Shown here piece after piece: positions 29,417 to 39,871 of a stretch of 39,871 nt of DNA. The stretch is from a virus. Location of the stretch: positions 1 through 39,871 of the IMG/VR virus record IMGVR_UViG_3300042868_006346, one strand, 5' to 3'. A program made the position numbers and the translations under genes. The notes beneath the pieces were generated by a model. The model ran no database searches. It was not told the origin of the DNA and saw only the letters and a list, made by a program, of their open reading frames with translations. How positions within the stretch are numbered: position 1 is the first letter of the stretch; every line of letters starts with the position of its first letter.

Positions 29417-32400
29417 TTACAAACTAAATGTAATTGTAAAATTTTGTTTTTGTTCCGTTCTTTCAGTATCAATAGATCCGTCACTTAATACAGGTATTGA
29501 TGTTATTTCAAATTTCAATTCATACTGTCCTGGGGTTGTACAATTTACTACTGTTTGAATATCCGCAGCCTCCATAACTAATTGTTTATTTCCTTGTATT
29601 TTATAGTTACTCAAATCAACGTTAGTAACTTGTGTACAGGTACCTGAACCTTTACCGCTTACTAGATTTGCAGTACCTATCTTCCAAAGAGATTCTGAGT
29701 CTAAGAAGAAGAACTGTACATAATTTAATAATCCTGTTGTTTGATTATACGATATAAATTTCTTAAGAGGTTCTTTAATAACTACTACCTCCGATGGTGA
29801 TGGTACAATTCCAGATTGATCAACATATTCCACAAAAGATTCTTTCATCTTTTTTTCAATAAATTTTTTATCCTGTGGTAATAATTTATCATATAAAACA
29901 TCATTCTTTGTTGGGTAGTCATTCATAAAGAACTTTGTGTATATCTTACCATATCTAGCGTTTTTTGCAAGTGAGCTTGTTAAACCAACACCATATGACT
30001 TAAACACCTCTGTTTGACTTCCGTATTTTGATATCATAAATTTCACGTAATTAGTGAAGGTATCAAAAGTCGCGATTGGTATATTTAGAGTTGCCGAACA
30101 AAAATATTTTGTTGTCATAAATCCAGATAAACCTTCGCCAAATGGTTTTGTTAATGGAATTAATGAGTAATTATTACCATTCGTTGTAAAAACACCAATA
30201 GGGGATAAAACTACACTCATTACTGAATATATAAAACCACCAATAAGTTCAGCATCATCTCCGGTGTATCCTGCTTCGCTAACTAATGTTCTTATTCCTA
30301 TCGCCGCAGTATTTTTATTTAATGTTGTTTTTTGCACAGATTCATCAACAGTATAGTTAACATATAATTCCGCTAAATTAGATGAACAATTTTGATTTGT
30401 TGATAAAACTGCATTATTTGTTGATTGTGCCTCCTCAACTTTTTGACTCATTTGTTCAATAGCGGTTAATGATTCTTGAGCCCTTGTTTCTTCATCCTTT
30501 TTAATTTTTTGTTGTATGTCTTTAATTATATTAGTTGTTAGTGTTTGTATGTAGTTTTCAATTTTAGGTATACTATAAAAAGATTGTCTTTGACCTTCAA
30601 AAGTTGTATCAAACCCGTTTTCAGAAATTCTATGCGAAACATTGGTTATCATATAAGGCCCACTAAACATCGGGACATTTCTTAAATTAAAATACATTGA
30701 CGGTTGGATAAGTGCATTACCCATCATATCTATAGAACATTTATAACTTCTATTTTTATACAAATTATATAGTGACACACTTTGTGAGTATCCGGCTCGG
30801 TTTCTATCCAAATTTGCCATTTGATTTAACACTTCTAACGATTCAGCGGTTGGTTGTCCTGGGTCTTGCGATATATCTAATTGTTTAAAGATTTGTTGGT
30901 TTTGAGGACCAATATCAACATTAAATCCAACAACTTTATTTGATTTATCCCAATCTGTTTTACCATCTAAATTATCCAATAGAGGATTGTCTGAAGATCG
31001 TCTCATATCAAATGCGTCGTCCCTATAACGATAATCAACATTTTCGTTCATTGCTAAATGTTCACTTGGTTTCCAAGCGTAAAAACAAACATATTTTGGT
31101 GCAGTCTCTCTATAATCCACATTTAAAAATGTACCAAAAAGAGTATTTGCAAACTCTAAAGTCCCTTCAGGTCTTGGTGACGGATTTTTACTCACGTCCT
31201 TCACATTGTAAAAATTAGCATATGCCGGCAATGGGAAACCAACAAAATTGTTTTCTGTTAGAACTGTATTCATTATGGATAACAAACTATTTTCATATGT
31301 TGCACTTTCAATAAGGGTTTTTAATTTAAAAACATCAACATATATTTTTTGTCCAACATCTCTACTTGCCCTATCAAGAAGTAATATATCTTCAAATAAA
31401 GTTTTAGATTTTAAATCCGCCCCCGATATCCAAGTATCATTTATTGTCTTAAACAATTCCCAAGTTTCATATCTCGTTTGTTCACTTTCAACCCTTAACG
31501 CCTTTACTGAACCATCAATTGGTGTAATATCAATCTTACCAATTTTTTTTCTTATGTTTGTTAATTCAATATCCAATAATGTGTTAATGTATTTATCATT
31601 ATTTTCTATATACTGATCCATTAAACTATAAAATTCAGATGACGTTATATTAGGTTTTTTTAATTTTTGTGTTGCAAATATTTTTATTATTGGTGCAAAT
31701 GTTTTTATAGTATTCTCTGTAAATTCAACATTCATATCAACAAAGAAATCTGTAATATAAGAACCATTGTCAGAATATTGTAATTGTGGTATTTCTGAGA
31801 AACCAACATAAGTTTCAAGTGTTTTCCACGTTTCAGGATTTTGTGTTTTAGATTGATTTAATGTTAAAGTACCTCCCGCTGTCGGTAAACTGTTTGGTGA
31901 ATTTTGGAAATATCCCTGATATATGTATGGATCTTCAATAAACTTTGTTGAGAATGAATAGAATAACTTTCTATCAAAGAATGATGGGTTACCGTGTCTC
32001 ATAGTAACTTTATATTCCATAAACTGACTCAAATATTGTGAAAAATTATCTATTTGAGATTCTTGTATATCGTTTATCACAACATCACCATTACTAGAAC
32101 CTGTTGGTTTTGGTAATTTCATAAGTTGTCTCATTAACGCTTGAAAATTATTCTCAACCTTAAACGAATTAGGTTCTGTTGGGTTTGTTTCAGGCACTAA
32201 AGATTCATAATCATACACCGATCTACTAAAATTCAAAAATTCATTTTCTAAAACATCAAGAATTTGTTTGTCAAATGTCGTAAACATTTCACTTATACTA
32301 CTATATTTAGTAGAATCCCCATTAATTGAAAAACTTTGTTGTTGTGACTCCTCATTGAATACTTGTTTTAGGTATTTGTCTGGTGTTGGTTTTTCAACTC

Positions 32401-35400
32401 TACTATTATCAAAATACCCATAGTTTGGTGCCTTCCAAAATAATCTTACGGAACCATTATACATTGATGGATTGTCCACAACTTCTGTTGCTAACGTCCC
32501 ATTACTTTTGAAACACTCATTTGATGTTTGATTTATTTGTGAACCAAAGGATGGCATTGGGTAAATATACCCGTCTTGTGTGGCGTCCACATAACAACTC
32601 CAAGGTGTGATTTGTAGTGATCTTGATGGATTTCCATTATCAAAACCTGGTGTTTTTAAAATAACTGATGTTGTTGATTTTTTTAAATTTAACCCTGTTT
32701 GTAATGCTGTTTGTATGGATGAACTTGTGTATCCCGCAATAACGTAATTGGTGACAACGAAATTTGTTGGTTGCGTTACTGTTTGAGGATAATTTATTGT
32801 ATAGGTACCAACACCACCTATTGTTCCATTTATCTGATTTACTATCGTAGTACCAAAACTAATACCACTCCCACTAAGTGTTAAACCAACAAATAAATCA
32901 TTACTTGATACCGATAAAACTTCTAATGTATTACCTGAAATCGTACAATTACCAGTAATTTGAGCAACCGAATCAAAAACTCTTACCCCTTGAAAGAACA
33001 CGTTAAAGTCGTCAATAAGTTTCGGGTAGAATCCTGTATTTATGTAAGTTTCTGTAAGAGGTCCATTCACAATATTATCCTGTAATATCATATTGTATGG
33101 TAAGTCATTAACAAGTAATTGATAATTTTTTGTACTCGCACTTGTTAAAGGATCAAAATTATCTAAATAATTAAAATCAGTCCATACCTCATCAAGAAAA
33201 TCAACACCTGTATCAATCCAAGTTTTATATCTATGCCATATAGAACCGTATTTTAGAACCCAAGCATATGGTAGTCTATGTACCGCACCATATTTTTTAA
33301 TAGTCGCCAAAATATAGTTCAAATCGGTAGCACTTCCATCCAAATTATAACTTTTGTATTTTTCTCTCAATGTACCTAAAGGTAAACTATTTAAGAATAA
33401 ATAAGAGGCATATTTGTAAGGATATGCATTATTTGCATTATATCTAAAATCATATACTCCCCTTTGGATAGCATTAATAAAATATGGAGTATTCAACATA
33501 GAGGTTGTTTGTTCCGCAACTAATTTATTTTCATAATTAACATATGAAACATTACCTTCAGTAGGATACTGAGTTTTTAATAATCTAGTTAAATAAAAAG
33601 TTTTTAAATCCACCAAATTTAATATCTGACTATAATTAAGACTTCCACTTTTATAATTAAATGACGTTACAGGTTGTTTATCTTTTCCGTCGTTACTAAA
33701 GTTTGTTATGATTTTATTTATTGTATTATAATCAAGTACTTGATTTGTTTTAAAAACTTGCTCAATCTGCTTAAAGTCTTTAGCGTTCGCCATATACTTT
33801 TTTACCCAATCCTTATCAGTAATTGGGTATAAATCGGTAAAATCAAAATTATCTACGATTTCAGATTCACCAAAATATCTTTCTGCGTATTGCGTATCAT
33901 TTAATGATAAAAGAGGTTTGGATTTATCGTTTTCAAAAATATCTTGATTAAGTATACTAAATGGTGCATTAACATTGTTTTGTATATATGGGGTGTTAAA
34001 ATCACCTCTAATATAATTTTGCCAAGATTGTCCACTACCCTCATTTGATATATGTTGTAAAAACGCAAGGTAATTCCCAGAATTTAAATCGTATTCTTTT
34101 AATTTTTTTGATAAGTATGGGTTGTCTGAACCCAAAGCATTAATCATATTTAATCCTTCAGATTCCGAATAATACTCCGTCATATTATAACTATAGTTGG
34201 AGTCTCTACTCAATTTACTATACAATGAATTTATTAATAACCTTTCATAAATTTCATAAAAAAACTTAACTTCTTCTGTGTTTTGGAACACTTCGTTACT
34301 TATTGGAAATTCAATCGCATTAAAACTTAACCTATTAGGTTTTGTTCCTAAATTTTGCGTTGATTTTGGGAATTGTGGTGGTGTTTCTCTTTCAATAGAA
34401 GCCTTTAAAAATTCCTCAACAAATTGTACTTCAGGCCATATTTCAGGTGAGAACGCTCTAACTTTTGTAGCAATAGATTGATTACCAGGGTACATTAATT
34501 CGTATTTTTCACCATCGGTATTCAAAGAGTTTTCTACAATAATTTGAGGCCAAGGATAAATTGGGTTGTCTAAAACCCCAACATCTTTTATATCAACACT
34601 ATTTGCCGTTGATGAGTTTGAATATATTGCCTGTTTTCTATATACATCATCTCTTAAGTCCCAAGCTTTGGTGTGTACTTCATCTAATAATCTCAAAAAT
34701 GATTCACCCTGAGCAAAAAACACCGCTAACACATTTCTAATTGTTGGGGCAAATCCAAGTCCACCATCTTCGGTACTTTTAGAAATTTGTTCTGTTAACT
34801 CTTTTGCTAAACCTTCCTCAATCTTTTGTTTTTTAGTTATATAATTTTCAGTAATAGTATCAATTTTTTCACTAAATGAATTCTTACCCTCAAAGAAAAA
34901 TTTAGGACCACTATTAAACTGTTGAGTTATAAACCTTTCAAAATTTTCTGTTTCTCCACTTGGTATTGTTTTATTATTGTTTCTTTGAGCATATGTTTTT
35001 TGGATGTCAATATCATTAATTGTTTTATTACTTATAAAAGTACTTTGTTCTTTTTTATTTATATCAAAAACAATATCCACGGGTATTGCATCAGGTTTAT
35101 TAGAACCTAATGTTTTATTATCTAATAGTCCTTTATTATATAATTTTACATCACCAGAAAGTTCGGTGAGTGGTGCTTGTTGAGCTTGAGATTCAATGTA
35201 TTCAGGTTTAAACTGATATATTGTGTATCCAACTTTTTCATATCCTGTCGGTATGGTAACAAATGTATTCTCAAAATCTAAATATTTTCTCGCCCATCCA
35301 CCATCAACCGCCGAATATGTAAAAATATTACCTCTGTATTCATCTATAACTTTTTTATAGTTTTCTAAATCATTTAAAACATCCAAATTTGTTTTTGAAT

Positions 35401-36376
35401 ATTTGTCAATAATACTAGTTAAAAACTTATTAAGATTAACTTGTAATTCTTGTACGGTTATTTCAGGAAAATTATCGTCTATTAACCCTTTGGATTTATA
35501 CTCAGCGTAAAGTTCTTTCATTTTTGAGTATCCCTTACTAGACCAAGACTGTGTTGTATTACTTTCAGTAGGACCGGTTTGTGTTGTTGTTTGGTTAACA
35601 GTTGTTATACTTGATTGGTACATAAGTGGGGCCGACCACATTGCTCTCCAATTGATGTGTGATAGGATTGTATATTTGTATCCATACAACTTTAAATTAA
35701 CCCTAAAGTTTCCACTACCAGGGTCAAAACTTGCGGTAAAATTTTGTAACATTAAAGGTAGTCTAACTGCTTTACCCAAATAACCTTTAATTGTTAAATA
35801 AAATAAAGGGTATGGTAATTGGAAAAATGCGGCATATGGTGATTCACTACCACCCTCAAACAACGCTCTCCCTTTGATGTCTTCCATTGTTATTTGTATA
35901 ACAGGTAAGAAATCTAAACCGTAGTCAATATTTATTTGAGTTATACCCAACATTCCGGTGTCTGTTGCACCTGGTTGTCCCTTAGATAATAAACTTTGTC
36001 TTAAAAAATAATCTTCACTTTTTTCATCAACTTTAACTTGTTCTATCTTTGGTTGATTAATTCCTTTACCAATAAGACTATCCTTTCCGGTTATTTCGTC
36101 AACATATATTTCCTCTAAAAATTTATGTCCACCAGGATTTAAAAAATTAATTTTTCCTACGGATATTGTTCTTACAGTATCATTTAATGGAACACCTAAC
36201 GCCAATTTAGTTCTTGGTAAAACGGCACATTCCAAATTAGCATAAAAAACAAGGTCTTCTTGATTTATTAGTCTTTCTCTTGCAATACCATTTTCATCAA
36301 TCACTTTATTTGGGTCAATGATTGTTATGTTTTGATAATCAAATTCTACTAATATATTTTCTCCGTTATCTACCAT
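29417..36376 (-). CDS. Giant multidomain baseplate hub-like protein
   Basis: A 2319-residue protein. An N-terminal region (about 100-280) has GMLGITQINIDYGLDFLPVI and FYLTIKGYLGKAVRLPL followed by a beta-rich jelly, in the style of tail-tube/hub proteins. Residues about 1139-1212 hold a beta-sandwich insert (ISGNTLEVLSVSSNDLFVG, VGTYTINYPQTV) of a kind scattered through phage tail proteins. Residues about 1870-1935 contain MGNALIQPSMYFNLRNVPMF, then SGPYMITNVSHRI and TTFEGQR, typical of hub proteins of the gp27/gpD/VgrG type. A coiled-coil linker (about 1940-1990) and a C-terminal domain follow. It overlaps the gp53-like gene by 11 bases. The hub seals the tail tube and initiates tube assembly; a length this great is unusual and suggests fusion of several hub functions. 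It is too beta-rich and non-periodic for a tape measure. Confidence 0.75.
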   Translation of the reverse strand: MVDNGENILVEFDYQNITIIDPNKVIDENGIARERLINQEDLVFYANLECAVLPRTKLALGVPLNDTVRTISVGKINFLNPGGHKFLEEIYVDEITGKDSLIGKGINQPKIEQVKVDEKSEDYFLRQSLLSKGQPGATDTGMLGITQINIDYGLDFLPVIQITMEDIKGRALFEGGSESPYAAFFQLPYPLFYLTIKGYLGKAVRLPLMLQNFTASFDPGSGNFRVNLKLYGYKYTILSHINWRAMWSAPLMYQSSITTVNQTTTQTGPTESNTTQSWSSKGYSKMKELYAEYKSKGLIDDNFPEITVQELQVNLNKFLTSIIDKYSKTNLDVLNDLENYKKVIDEYRGNIFTYSAVDGGWARKYLDFENTFVTIPTGYEKVGYTIYQFKPEYIESQAQQAPLTELSGDVKLYNKGLLDNKTLGSNKPDAIPVDIVFDINKKEQSTFISNKTINDIDIQKTYAQRNNNKTIPSGETENFERFITQQFNSGPKFFFEGKNSFSEKIDTITENYITKKQKIEEGLAKELTEQISKSTEDGGLGFAPTIRNVLAVFFAQGESFLRLLDEVHTKAWDLRDDVYRKQAIYSNSSTANSVDIKDVGVLDNPIYPWPQIIVENSLNTDGEKYELMYPGNQSIATKVRAFSPEIWPEVQFVEEFLKASIERETPPQFPKSTQNLGTKPNRLSFNAIEFPISNEVFQNTEEVKFFYEIYERLLINSLYSKLSRDSNYSYNMTEYYSESEGLNMINALGSDNPYLSKKLKEYDLNSGNYLAFLQHISNEGSGQSWQNYIRGDFNTPYIQNNVNAPFSILNQDIFENDKSKPLLSLNDTQYAERYFGESEIVDNFDFTDLYPITDKDWVKKYMANAKDFKQIEQVFKTNQVLDYNTINKIITNFSNDGKDKQPVTSFNYKSGSLNYSQILNLVDLKTFYLTRLLKTQYPTEGNVSYVNYENKLVAEQTTSMLNTPYFINAIQRGVYDFRYNANNAYPYKYASYLFLNSLPLGTLREKYKSYNLDGSATDLNYILATIKKYGAVHRLPYAWVLKYGSIWHRYKTWIDTGVDFLDEVWTDFNYLDNFDPLTSASTKNYQLLVNDLPYNMILQDNIVNGPLTETYINTGFYPKLIDDFNVFFQGVRVFDSVAQITGNCTISGNTLEVLSVSSNDLFVGLTLSGSGISFGTTIVNQINGTIGGVGTYTINYPQTVTQPTNFVVTNYVIAGYTSSSIQTALQTGLNLKKSTTSVILKTPGFDNGNPSRSLQITPWSCYVDATQDGYIYPMPSFGSQINQTSNECFKSNGTLATEVVDNPSMYNGSVRLFWKAPNYGYFDNSRVEKPTPDKYLKQVFNEESQQQSFSINGDSTKYSSISEMFTTFDKQILDVLENEFLNFSRSVYDYESLVPETNPTEPNSFKVENNFQALMRQLMKLPKPTGSSNGDVVINDIQESQIDNFSQYLSQFMEYKVTMRHGNPSFFDRKLFYSFSTKFIEDPYIYQGYFQNSPNSLPTAGGTLTLNQSKTQNPETWKTLETYVGFSEIPQLQYSDNGSYITDFFVDMNVEFTENTIKTFAPIIKIFATQKLKKPNITSSEFYSLMDQYIENNDKYINTLLDIELTNIRKKIGKIDITPIDGSVKALRVESEQTRYETWELFKTINDTWISGADLKSKTLFEDILLLDRASRDVGQKIYVDVFKLKTLIESATYENSLLSIMNTVLTENNFVGFPLPAYANFYNVKDVSKNPSPRPEGTLEFANTLFGTFLNVDYRETAPKYVCFYAWKPSEHLAMNENVDYRYRDDAFDMRRSSDNPLLDNLDGKTDWDKSNKVVGFNVDIGPQNQQIFKQLDISQDPGQPTAESLEVLNQMANLDRNRAGYSQSVSLYNLYKNRSYKCSIDMMGNALIQPSMYFNLRNVPMFSGPYMITNVSHRISENGFDTTFEGQRQSFYSIPKIENYIQTLTTNIIKDIQQKIKKDEETRAQESLTAIEQMSQKVEEAQSTNNAVLSTNQNCSSNLAELYVNYTVDESVQKTTLNKNTAAIGIRTLVSEAGYTGDDAELIGGFIYSVMSVVLSPIGVFTTNGNNYSLIPLTKPFGEGLSGFMTTKYFCSATLNIPIATFDTFTNYVKFMISKYGSQTEVFKSYGVGLTSSLAKNARYGKIYTKFFMNDYPTKNDVLYDKLLPQDKKFIEKKMKESFVEYVDQSGIVPSPSEVVVIKEPLKKFISYNQTTGLLNYVQFFFLDSESLWKIGTANLVSGKGSGTCTQVTNVDLSNYKIQGNKQLVMEAADIQTVVNCTTPGQYELKFEITSIPVLSDGSIDTERTEQKQNFTITFSL

Positions 36377-36689
36377 AATAGAAGAAGTGGTTTTCTAATG
36401 TCGCTTTATAATCTTGTAAAGAACCTAACAAAGGAAAGGGAATTGTCAATACCGCAGCATCAGGTATGTTAAATTCAAAACCTGTATATTGAGGATTAGC
36501 TAACATTATTAACCATCCAAAAAATGGCGTACCATAAAATTGTTGGGACACTTTATCCAATCTAGATATACCTACTTTATATATGTATAATTTATCTGAA
36601 CTTTTTGGTGGTAAATTCACATATGGTACAACGGTTTGTACTCCATTCTGAATAAATTGATTATATCTATTATAATACTGTAGAGCCAT
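36366..36689 (-). CDS. Baseplate wedge protein, gp53-like
   Basis: A 107-residue protein whose core, RLDKVSQQFYGTPFFGWLIM followed by LANPQY and IPDAAVLTIPFPL, is the conserved element of T4 gp53 baseplate wedge proteins and of the LysM-like tail proteins related to them. T4 gp53 is 196 residues, so this is a minimal version. It would clamp neighbouring wedges around the hub. It starts two bases after the stop of the OmpA-like-domain gene and its end overlaps the start of the hub-like gene by 11 bases, a tight structural operon. Motif recognition is confident; exact orthology to gp53 is somewhat less so. Confidence 0.85.
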   Translation of the reverse strand: MALQYYNRYNQFIQNGVQTVVPYVNLPPKSSDKLYIYKVGISRLDKVSQQFYGTPFFGWLIMLANPQYTGFEFNIPDAAVLTIPFPLLGSLQDYKATLENHFFYYGR

Positions 36690-36691
36690 TT

Positions 36692-39600
36692 TTAACTAAA
36701 TTTAACCTTACCATTAAATGTGTTTTGTTTATTGTTTACGTTAACATCACTATAAAGATCCGCTAGTTTCTTTTTCTTTTGTATGTTGTCACCAACATTG
36801 TCCGTTGTATACTGAATCTTACTATCAAATTGTTCAATTGTAAATTTTTCGTAATTAGTTATATAGTCTTCACTTTTGGTTGCATCTTCCAATTGTTTGA
36901 TTTCAGCGTCGTGTTCTGTTTTAAAACTTCTTTTTAATGTCTCACAATATCTTCTTATTGCATCTACTAATGATTGTTTATCTTTAACTTTGTCAACACC
37001 GGTTAAAGAATCAACAAACGTATTAAATTTATTATCATCAAGGAAAATTGGGGACATAACCAAATAAAATCTTCTCAACTCTTCTGTTGGGAATATTGTT
37101 AATACTGGGTCAAAATTTAGTGTTGATGTGTTATAGTTACCAGTGATAACGTTATCCTTAAGAAACTTTTTAGAAAAATCAGTTATTTTATCACCAACAG
37201 TAGTTTTAAAAGCGGTTGTAATTTTTGTTATTGTACCATTTGTATCCGCAGTCAAAGTATAAACTTTATAATTACCTGTACCCAATTTAATACCATCAAG
37301 TGAATTACAAACAACATCCGACTTTCTTAATGTATAATTGTAAGTTTCTTGGTATGTTGTCATTGTGTTTAATGGTACAATAACTAAATCATTAAGTTCG
37401 GTTTTCATCTTACTTATTTCTTCTTCCAATTTTCTAGACAAATTTCTTAATGACGCGTCTGTGGCATCATAGAGTATCTTGAATGTTGTATATTCAAGTG
37501 TTATAGGGTTATTACCTGTTGCCACATCATCAACCGCCTTATCAACTAATTTTTCAACTCTTTCTTCTATTGAATTAGATTTACCATATAATTCGGCACC
37601 TACCGGTGTTCCATATACATCTAATTGCCCTTCACTAAAACTTCTATCTAAACTTACTAAAGATAAAATTCCTGAGTTAGTTAAATTTACTATTGTTTTA
37701 GTTTGATCAACAATCGTTTTAAAGTAATTTTGGGTTCCTGTAGACAATTCATTTATTAATGGTGTATATTCAATTTCACCCGTTTCAAAACTTCCATTAT
37801 TTTGTGAATTTGTTGTGACAATTGTACCAATAGTTCCACCACCTTTTTGTGGTAATTGATTCTCAACCTGTCTAGTTGATACCGCACCCGTGTTAGCACC
37901 CGCGCCTTTTACTATTTTTTGTACCAACTCATTATCTCTTTCTGAGGTATCTTCAGTTGCCACCGCACGTTCATCATAAATTTCTGTGTTTGCGTAGTAA
38001 TTAAACGATAAAGCGTTTTGTAATTGTTTAATAGGATTTGCCAAACCATGACCACCAATAAAATCAAATCCTAATGTTATTTTTGCAATCATTGGTTGAA
38101 CCCCAATACCTTCAGGATTGATATCAAACACTAATGGGTCATATGCTATACTCAACGAGTTAGGTACAATCTTAGTATGGAAAAAGTCTCCAATTCTTAA
38201 AACTAATATAGGTGGAGCACCAAACGCAGTGTTTAACGCGTCGTTATATTTTGGTTTACCATCAGGTCCAATAACAGGTATTGTTTGTCCCGGTCTCATA
38301 CATTGTTGTAAGAATGTTAATCTCGCATTTAACCCTTCAGGTGTTGTTGAGTGGAACGCGGGACTAAAATATTTTATTTTATCTTTTAAACTATCAAACA
38401 CCATTGGATCGCTTTCTTTCAAAACATCAAAATAGTCACATTCTGAAAAAAGATATCTTAATATTTTTTTAGATATACCCTCCTTAACTTTTTGTATCGG
38501 ATCAGGTTGTGGGACAATTTTAATTGGTGGTACTAGTATTTCTTGTGGAATTTCTTCAATTGTTGTTGTATCACTTGGTGGTTCAAAATTTGGATCAAAC
38601 TCAACCTCCTCCTCAATTTTAGGTGGGACTATACCAACAGTCGCAGCAACGGCCTTGATTTTAACTTTCCTACACGCCATTGCAGGAACCGAATACCATT
38701 CACCACCATAATTATTAATTGATCCTGTTGGTGATCCGTCTCTAATATTACTGTTACAATTTATCGTAAAATTGAACCCGTCTCTACTTTTTGGTGTTAC
38801 ATCTGCAACCTCACCTCTTGGTGTTGATTTGATGATAAACTTCTTATCATTAATTAATTGTCCGAGACTTGTTCCATCAACAGTTTGTCCACTAAACCAT
38901 TTTAAAACAGAGTCAATTCTTCTATCAGATAGATAAGCATTATATTGTTCATTTTGTATTGGCGATGCAGATCCTTCCAATTCTATTGTTACGGTACCAC
39001 TTTTATCTATTATTATTTCTTTAATCTTTTGTATTAACTCTGTTTTTATAACATCAAAATTATAAATTACAGTGTTATCAAAGAAATCTTGTACTGACTC
39101 TTTAAGGAATTCTTGTGTTTCTGACGAACCCGACTTTTTTGCATAACACTTAGCAGGAGCTTTAGTCACATAAGGACCATTTCTCAATCCAATATAAAAA
39201 TCATAATATTGTTCATAATTATAATTTTGATATGAACCTGTCATATCGTATTGTTCTCTACCTAATGCACCTGCGATTTTCCATACTTCAGGATCTTCAG
39301 GGTCTTTAATAGGATTATTATAATACGGTGAATCATTTTCAAAATAAAACGCAAAATCTAAAAATCCTCTTAATTCATCATCCGCACTAATTTGATCAGT
39401 AACCGCAGGTGTTATTGTTATCTCAGTATTACTTTGTGTTTGTGTAGCTCCGTCAGTACCACCTTGATTACCCTCAATAGAACCACCGGCAATTATCTCA
39501 GTTGGTATACCTTGTAATATTGTATTAATTTCTTCTTGTGTTGTTCTTGGTTCGTTTAATAACTGTTGATAAGTATATAATTGACTTGTTGGTATAGTAT

Positions 39601-39871
39601 TAAACTTTAACGCCAAATCATATAAATCGTATTTCACACAACCAGCAAAAAATGAATCTAATATTGAATTAACCTCTTGTGGTGTTCTATTCTTTAACTG
39701 TTCTCTAACAATAGTGTTCATAACGGATGGGTGATCCACAACAATTTTCCAACTTAAACTTCCCGTCCTTTGTGTATTTTTGTACGTAAAGATTGGTTCA
39801 GGTCTACCAAGAAAAGACGTTGGATTCCAACTTGCTCTACTATCTTCACTAAATGATATGTCATATGGTGG
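36692..39871 (-). CDS. Partial large baseplate-associated protein with OmpA-like domain
   Basis: The frame is open to the right edge of the window, so the start lies outside. A GTG at 39739 could be mistaken for the start, but the upstream codons read as continuous protein (FLGRPEPIFTYKNTQRTG, then SLSWKIVVDHPS), so I extend the gene to 39871; at least 1059 residues. About 38900-39010 encodes VTIELEGSASPIQNEQYNAY followed by LSDRRIDSVLKWF, the signature of the OmpA-like C-terminal domain that binds peptidoglycan (GxAxxxxxxxxN..LSxRR). About 38020-38230 encodes LRIGDFFHTKIVPNSLSIAY and INPEGIGVQPMIAKITLGFD, a motif I associate with large contractile phage baseplates. A long coiled coil and a Lys-rich tail close the protein. 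It directly precedes the gp53-like gene. Confidence 0.8.
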   Translation of the reverse strand, partial: PPYDISFSEDSRASWNPTSFLGRPEPIFTYKNTQRTGSLSWKIVVDHPSVMNTIVREQLKNRTPQEVNSILDSFFAGCVKYDLYDLALKFNTIPTSQLYTYQQLLNEPRTTQEEINTILQGIPTEIIAGGSIEGNQGGTDGATQTQSNTEITITPAVTDQISADDELRGFLDFAFYFENDSPYYNNPIKDPEDPEVWKIAGALGREQYDMTGSYQNYNYEQYYDFYIGLRNGPYVTKAPAKCYAKKSGSSETQEFLKESVQDFFDNTVIYNFDVIKTELIQKIKEIIIDKSGTVTIELEGSASPIQNEQYNAYLSDRRIDSVLKWFSGQTVDGTSLGQLINDKKFIIKSTPRGEVADVTPKSRDGFNFTINCNSNIRDGSPTGSINNYGGEWYSVPAMACRKVKIKAVAATVGIVPPKIEEEVEFDPNFEPPSDTTTIEEIPQEILVPPIKIVPQPDPIQKVKEGISKKILRYLFSECDYFDVLKESDPMVFDSLKDKIKYFSPAFHSTTPEGLNARLTFLQQCMRPGQTIPVIGPDGKPKYNDALNTAFGAPPILVLRIGDFFHTKIVPNSLSIAYDPLVFDINPEGIGVQPMIAKITLGFDFIGGHGLANPIKQLQNALSFNYYANTEIYDERAVATEDTSERDNELVQKIVKGAGANTGAVSTRQVENQLPQKGGGTIGTIVTTNSQNNGSFETGEIEYTPLINELSTGTQNYFKTIVDQTKTIVNLTNSGILSLVSLDRSFSEGQLDVYGTPVGAELYGKSNSIEERVEKLVDKAVDDVATGNNPITLEYTTFKILYDATDASLRNLSRKLEEEISKMKTELNDLVIVPLNTMTTYQETYNYTLRKSDVVCNSLDGIKLGTGNYKVYTLTADTNGTITKITTAFKTTVGDKITDFSKKFLKDNVITGNYNTSTLNFDPVLTIFPTEELRRFYLVMSPIFLDDNKFNTFVDSLTGVDKVKDKQSLVDAIRRYCETLKRSFKTEHDAEIKQLEDATKSEDYITNYEKFTIEQFDSKIQYTTDNVGDNIQKKKKLADLYSDVNVNNKQNTFNGKVKFS

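Follow-up and report, generated by a model that had tools for sequence, protein, structure and literature searches.

An OmpA-like domain carried on variable tethers by a phage baseplate-cluster protein

OmpA-like domains are common. Beyond a few lysozyme-tipped model phages, little is known of how a tail tip locates, grips and passes through peptidoglycan. In TagL, an OmpA-like protein of type VI secretion, diaminopimelate (DAP) is contacted by Asp486, Asn494, Leu497 and Arg501, that is, by an Asp and by residues placed at +8, +11 and +15 from it (PMC8253398), and an Asp is also a ligand contact in AbOmpA (D271). Inside contractile baseplates, the LysM fold of T4 gp53 and of Milano BW4 joins the hub and the wedge (PMC10966104, PMC10811340). 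The order of the genes in T4 places the tape-measure gene 29 first, followed by genes 48 and 54.

The window considered here (the whole stretch of DNA that was analysed, 39,871 nucleotides of a viral record) carries at one edge an open reading frame whose visible part is described in Table 1. Full-length relatives of its product in viral contigs measure approximately 1660–1740 residues, which puts the whole protein at about 1700, and by comparison with them some 640 N-terminal residues are absent from the window; this longer frame reads through the GTG at 39739 as an internal codon. An original prediction, made from the sequence, had placed in it, at 38760–39010, an OmpA-like peptidoglycan-binding domain of a baseplate protein. 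The peptide on which that proposal was built, IELEGSASPIQNEQYNAYLS(DRRIDSVLKWF), is encoded on the minus strand as residues ~296–328 of ORF 36692–39871, and the proposed interval lies inside the OmpA-like domain, but it spans only the β2-α2-β3 middle of a domain that extends over 38639–39385.

The assignment to a baseplate agrees with the gene context, since the gene belongs to a T4-like contractile-tail and baseplate cluster. In relatives whose sequence extends upstream, a tail sheath gene is followed by a gene of unknown function, a gp19-like tube gene, a gp26-like hub gene (PF12322, E 5e-10) and a gene of 610 aa; next come the OmpA-bearing gene, one that is gp53-like and the gene of a tail protein of 2300 aa. 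The OmpA-bearing gene therefore sits after a gene of tape-measure size (the 610-aa one) and beside a gp53-like gene, and the similarity of this order to the 29-48-54 order of T4 points to the place of a tube cap or initiator. A comparison of the core segments with T4-like gp54 and gp48 alignments by hhalign gave probabilities of at most 2.3%, so that its place in the baseplate, and any entry into the periplasm, are predicted from gene order. The 2319-aa tail protein of the window (29417–36376) is matched only briefly by known tail families (phrog_52, phrog_21413).

Table 1. Features of the OmpA-bearing gene and of its neighbours in the window; identities are means to the window.
Feature	Position	Strand	Remarks
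Baseplate-cluster protein, 1059 aa visible	36692..39871	(-)	ORF; 5' end beyond window
Conserved core segment N-terminal of domain, residues 1-112	39536..39871	(-)	Identity 0.71 (34 homologues)
Variable linker 1, residues 113-162	39386..39535	(-)	Identity 0.23; Gly/Ser/Thr/Asn-rich; very low pLDDT
OmpA-like domain, residues ~163-411	38639..39385	(-)	AlphaFold2, Foldseek, profile searches
β1 motif FAFYFENDSP, counterpart of the Bacteroidota YFDNDxPDP signature	39326..39355	(-)	
Ligand-site motif GSASPIQNEQYNAYLSDRR, residues 300-318	38918..38974	(-)	Ser303 in the usual place of the Asp; Asn311, Leu314, Ser315, Arg318 conserved
Invariant Gly-Glu, residues 353-354	38810..38815	(-)	Directly after β3; third crevice loop
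Cys372	38756..38758	(-)	First of phage-specific Cys pair
Cys400	38672..38674	(-)	Second of pair; within MACRKV
Variable linker 2, residues 412-455	38507..38638	(-)	Identity 0.18; Pro/Glu-rich
Best-conserved core segment, C-terminal of domain, residues 456-640	37952..38506	(-)	Identity 0.78; NPEGIGVQPM...NALSFNYYANTEIYDER
C-terminal region, residues 641-1059	36695..37951	(-)	Mainly helical, variable
gp53-like baseplate wedge protein, 107 aa, next gene	36366..36689	(-)	phrog_7145 E 3.7e-5; PF11246 weak
Tail protein, 2319 aa	29417..36376	(-)	phrog_52 near C-terminal part; possible hub component

Residues ~163–411 are confirmed as an OmpA-like domain, a divergent member of the PF00691 family, and the likeness far exceeds what chance would give. 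Modelling with AlphaFold2 on the family alignment gave the expected OmpA-like order of strands and helices (β1, an insertion of ~70 residues, α1, β2, α2, β3, a loop, α3 and β4) with a pLDDT of 91.2 and a pTM of 0.90, and the last strand corresponds to ACRKVKI (38657–38677). When the model was compared with the PDB by Foldseek, the best 33 matches were all OmpA-like and the best 50 nearly all, and the leading ones were almost without exception structures of OmpA, Pal, OprF, PorE and TagL; the E-values are modest (2e-3) because the long insertions dilute the alignment. The fold that had been proposed is thus the one that the model and its structural neighbours return. Sequence searches were less direct. 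A Pfam and PHROGs scan of the window protein by itself gave no reportable OmpA match and no phage family, and the sole Pfam match of the full protein with an E-value under 1 was AbiEii, a chance hit; phmmer with the same single protein against the PDB yielded two weak matches only, both of them OmpA-like. The excised domain scores 14.1 bits against PF00691, under the gathering score of 27.2, so the HMM search that had been suggested fails for the window and succeeds for its family: PF00691 is matched by 41 of the 44 close phage homologues at E ≤ 0.1 (best 3.1e-5), and the profile of the 44 phage sequences retrieves OmpA, Pal, PorE and YfiB structures from the PDB, the best at E 1.2e-5. Membership is resolved by family-level profiles only, because the window protein on its own is sub-threshold.

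The domain is an accessory module held on tethers outside the core. Two linkers of approximately 50 and 44 residues, with very low pLDDT, join it to the core segments, and the mean identity to the window, which is given for cores and linkers in Table 1, is 0.37 for the domain. Of the 65 family members sampled whose upstream sequence is long enough, 57 have the domain at E < 1e-3. At least two members are complete open reading frames without it (L245:4748-7762 and L291:10485-13355); a short linker takes its place there, and the helical C-terminal region is largely missing as well. A third member (L246) also has no domain, but here the frame is not closed on the 5' side. It is from these complete relatives, together with the variability of the linkers, that the accessory nature of the domain follows. 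L245 and L291 constitute natural domain-less controls. Within the core, the AlphaFold2 model of the 1059-aa fragment is of low quality, a consequence of the truncation of the gene at the window edge.

Among bacterial domains, the most similar ones belong to a Bacteroidota OmpA variant. In most phage relatives the first strand reads [FY]YFDND-P-P, and the window has YFENDSP, which lacks the closing DP. When 84,980 species genomes were scanned with a degenerate DNA pattern for YFDNDxPDP, at least 120 stretches matched, and the 80 YFDNDxPDP loci among the matches listed all belong to Bacteroidota; a search of genome contigs with the phage alignment had returned no bacterial relative, while this DNA pattern did find some. 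The bacterial sequences represent a C-terminal OmpA variant that shares with the phage set the β1 motif and the Tyr-rich insertion; G-x-[AT]-S replaces G-H-T-D, and the variant also has YN..LS.RR and ends in RRVEI. In all 47 Bacteroidota variants Ser occupies the position of the Asp. The phage and Bacteroidota profiles align by hhalign with a probability of 99.9% over 187 columns, the β1 extension included. With the phage HMM the bacterial relatives reach a median of 78 bits (about 78 in either direction), and canonical OmpA structures reach at most 28 bits with the phage profile. Judged by motifs and profiles, the phage domain is of the Bacteroidota "YFDNDxPDP / G-x-A-S-P" OmpA subtype. Several of the bacterial relatives that were inspected have signal-peptide-like N-termini and TPR/PD40 repeats, which marks these as envelope proteins; the TPR/PD40 architecture was not found in the phage baseplate-cluster protein. 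The Bacteroidota loci (L082–L161) document a widespread Asp-less TPR/PD40 OmpA variant, of which PF00691 matches only 35 of 47 at E ≤ 0.1. In unrooted trees of a close and of a wide set, one supported branch parts the phage domains from the bacterial ones, in line with a single old exchange. Such an event between the phage lineage and its Bacteroidota hosts is probable; because the trees are unrooted we infer the direction, host to phage being the likelier.

The gapless alignment of GSASPIQNEQYNAYLSDRR with the TagL site sets Ser303, Asn311, Leu314 and Arg318 against the four DAP contacts. Asn311, Leu314 and Arg318 are invariant in the 44 close phage homologues, and the canonical Asp position is Ser in every one of them, which leaves the published DAP contact network incomplete. 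In a distant sample of 62, taken from the same baseplate family by a core-segment DNA pattern and not by similarity of the domain, Ser occupies this position in 58, and the Asn and the Arg are kept in 61 and 59, respectively. Of the 23 invariant residues of the domain, 15 fall in the crevice region, which comprises 39 of 257 positions (the ends of β1, β2 and β3, the adjoining loops and the first turns of α2); the Fisher p of 8e-9 is indicative only, because the analyst set the limits of the region, following the published description of the crevice (PMC8253398). The original prediction had left the Asp and the Arg to be checked, and loss of the ligand residues was to count against it: Arg318 is present and invariant, while the Asp is absent and replaced by Ser303, so that half of the pair is lost within a fold that is OmpA-like. 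Decay as the reason for the loss of the Asp was rejected in favour of inheritance, given that the nearest bacterial subtype carries the same Ser. With Ser shared by the Bacteroidota variant (47/47) and Asn, Leu and Arg kept, the ligand site looks maintained and not decayed.

Some members of the phage family depart from this pattern. One distant member (L256:8151-11771) has a classical GQTDN motif with the Asp present, nearly all the others having Ser. In eight more (L224, L228, L229, L238, L239, L254, L272 and L273) the domain is very divergent, mostly with an S-S-C-S-type motif, and four of the eight make up a long-branched group in the tree; in these members the domain is possibly shifting towards another function.

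The phage copies add to the bacterial design an extra loop that bears an invariant pair of cysteines. The columns of Cys372 and Cys400 are both Cys in 44 of 44 close and in 53 of 62 distant phage homologues, and the pair is found in none of the 47 bacterial relatives. A Cys372–Cys400 disulfide, acquired in the phage lineage, is probable, and it would fit a domain exposed on the virion.

Taken together, these observations suggest a tethered envelope-binding module that would be engaged during injection, with peptidoglycan as the leading ligand, a reading that we regard as evenly poised between right and wrong. Contraction of the sheath would drive the tip of the tube into the envelope, where the tethered domains could bind the cell wall. 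The likeliest ligand would be the peptide stem of peptidoglycan, lodged in the usual OmpA-like crevice and held without the Asp contact; alternatively, the partner engaged might be another envelope ligand, that of the host's own OmpA variant. Such binding would keep or place the tip at the peptidoglycan layer, a role comparable to that of TagL, which fastens the type VI secretion apparatus to the wall. We infer that the protein enters the periplasm, that peptidoglycan is its ligand and that the purpose is to hold the tip, and the proposal with which the work began, anchoring to peptidoglycan during injection, is plausible. A more specific form is tentative and on the unlikely side: a large uncultured clade of Bacteroidota phages would have taken the Asp-less OmpA domain of its host, stapled it with a disulfide and tethered it, and would dock the tube tip on the wall ligand of the host through a non-canonical Ser/Asn/Leu/Arg site, as a virion-borne counterpart of TagL.

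The absence of the canonical Asp can be read in other ways. The OmpA-like fold could be a structural part, whose protein–protein contacts join hub and wedge without touching the cell wall, and the gp53-like neighbour, together with the LysM fold of T4 gp53 and Milano BW4 as a precedent (PMC10966104, PMC10811340), speaks in favour of such a role. Both linkers, however, are long, variable and unstructured, unlike a rigid joint; Asn, Leu and Arg with the crevice loops are the best-conserved part of the domain, and some complete relatives do without it altogether. We consider a purely structural role unlikely.

The same residue change can also be taken as a sign of another envelope target, either a protein partner, periplasmic or in the outer membrane, of the host TPR/PD40-OmpA proteins or a surface glycan, addressed by competition or mimicry: the Ser-for-Asp subtype is specific to Bacteroidota and its ligand may differ from diaminopimelate, and the phage-specific Cys pair would suit exposure outside the cell. 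Against this, the classical site retains its Asn, Leu and Arg and no such partner is known, and this target seems to us quite improbable. Hardly credible is the notion that the domain comes from a captured host gene and persists as a remnant devoid of function. It is true that it occurs in most members of the family, not in all, and that its identity is low relative to that of its flanks, but 57 of 65 members retain it, with the site residues and the new Cys pair invariant, and decay would not spare them.

If peptidoglycan binding by a tethered module is the correct reading, contractile-tailed phages with this baseplate protein may grip the bacterial wall during DNA injection. A baseplate module that is kin to the wall-binding-type domains of the hosts offers a concrete handle on this step in Bacteroidota phages, and it raises the question of which ligand is bound by the Asp-less OmpA variant that is abundant in Bacteroidota. 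In an annotated phage collection of 50,697 records, the six family members that were searched found no match. The literature covered contained no description of a phage baseplate with an OmpA-like domain; as it was mainly open-access, this is weak evidence. An OmpA-like annotation is borne by a few viral proteins, among them R9ZWT8 from Cellulophaga phage phi17:2, a cultured phage; this protein has a similar predicted fold and a weak match (E 0.026) but counts 327 residues and stands in a different context. The strongest viral match (E 5e-8), also with a similar predicted fold, is A0A6J5L6C4 of an uncultured phage.

Compared with the known systems, the domain resembles most closely the Bacteroidota TPR/PD40 proteins (e.g., L088, L107 and L152), with which it shares the whole-length profile, the β1 extension, the Tyr-rich insertion, G-x-A-S, YN..LS.RR and the ..RRVEI end; the phage copies differ in lying inside a baseplate protein and not behind TPR/PD40 repeats, in their extra Cys-pair loop and in often having no "DP" after the P. 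The C-terminal domain of PorE of Porphyromonas gingivalis (6TOP), also a Bacteroidota OmpA-like domain, is among the top matches of both fold and sequence, although the identity over the structural match is only 13–17% and the architecture of the protein is another one. With the LysM fold of T4 gp53 and baseplate wedge 4 the phage domain has in common a peptidoglycan-binding-type fold within a contractile baseplate, but LysM is there a rigid, structural element, whereas the phage domain is OmpA-like and sits on flexible linkers. TagL (5M38) offers a parallel: its OmpA-like domain fastens a contractile injection machine to the wall and has the Asn, Leu and Arg in common with the phage site (PMC8253398). 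It possesses the Asp, however, and TagL resides in the inner membrane of the attacker, whereas the phage domain is carried on the virion of the invader.
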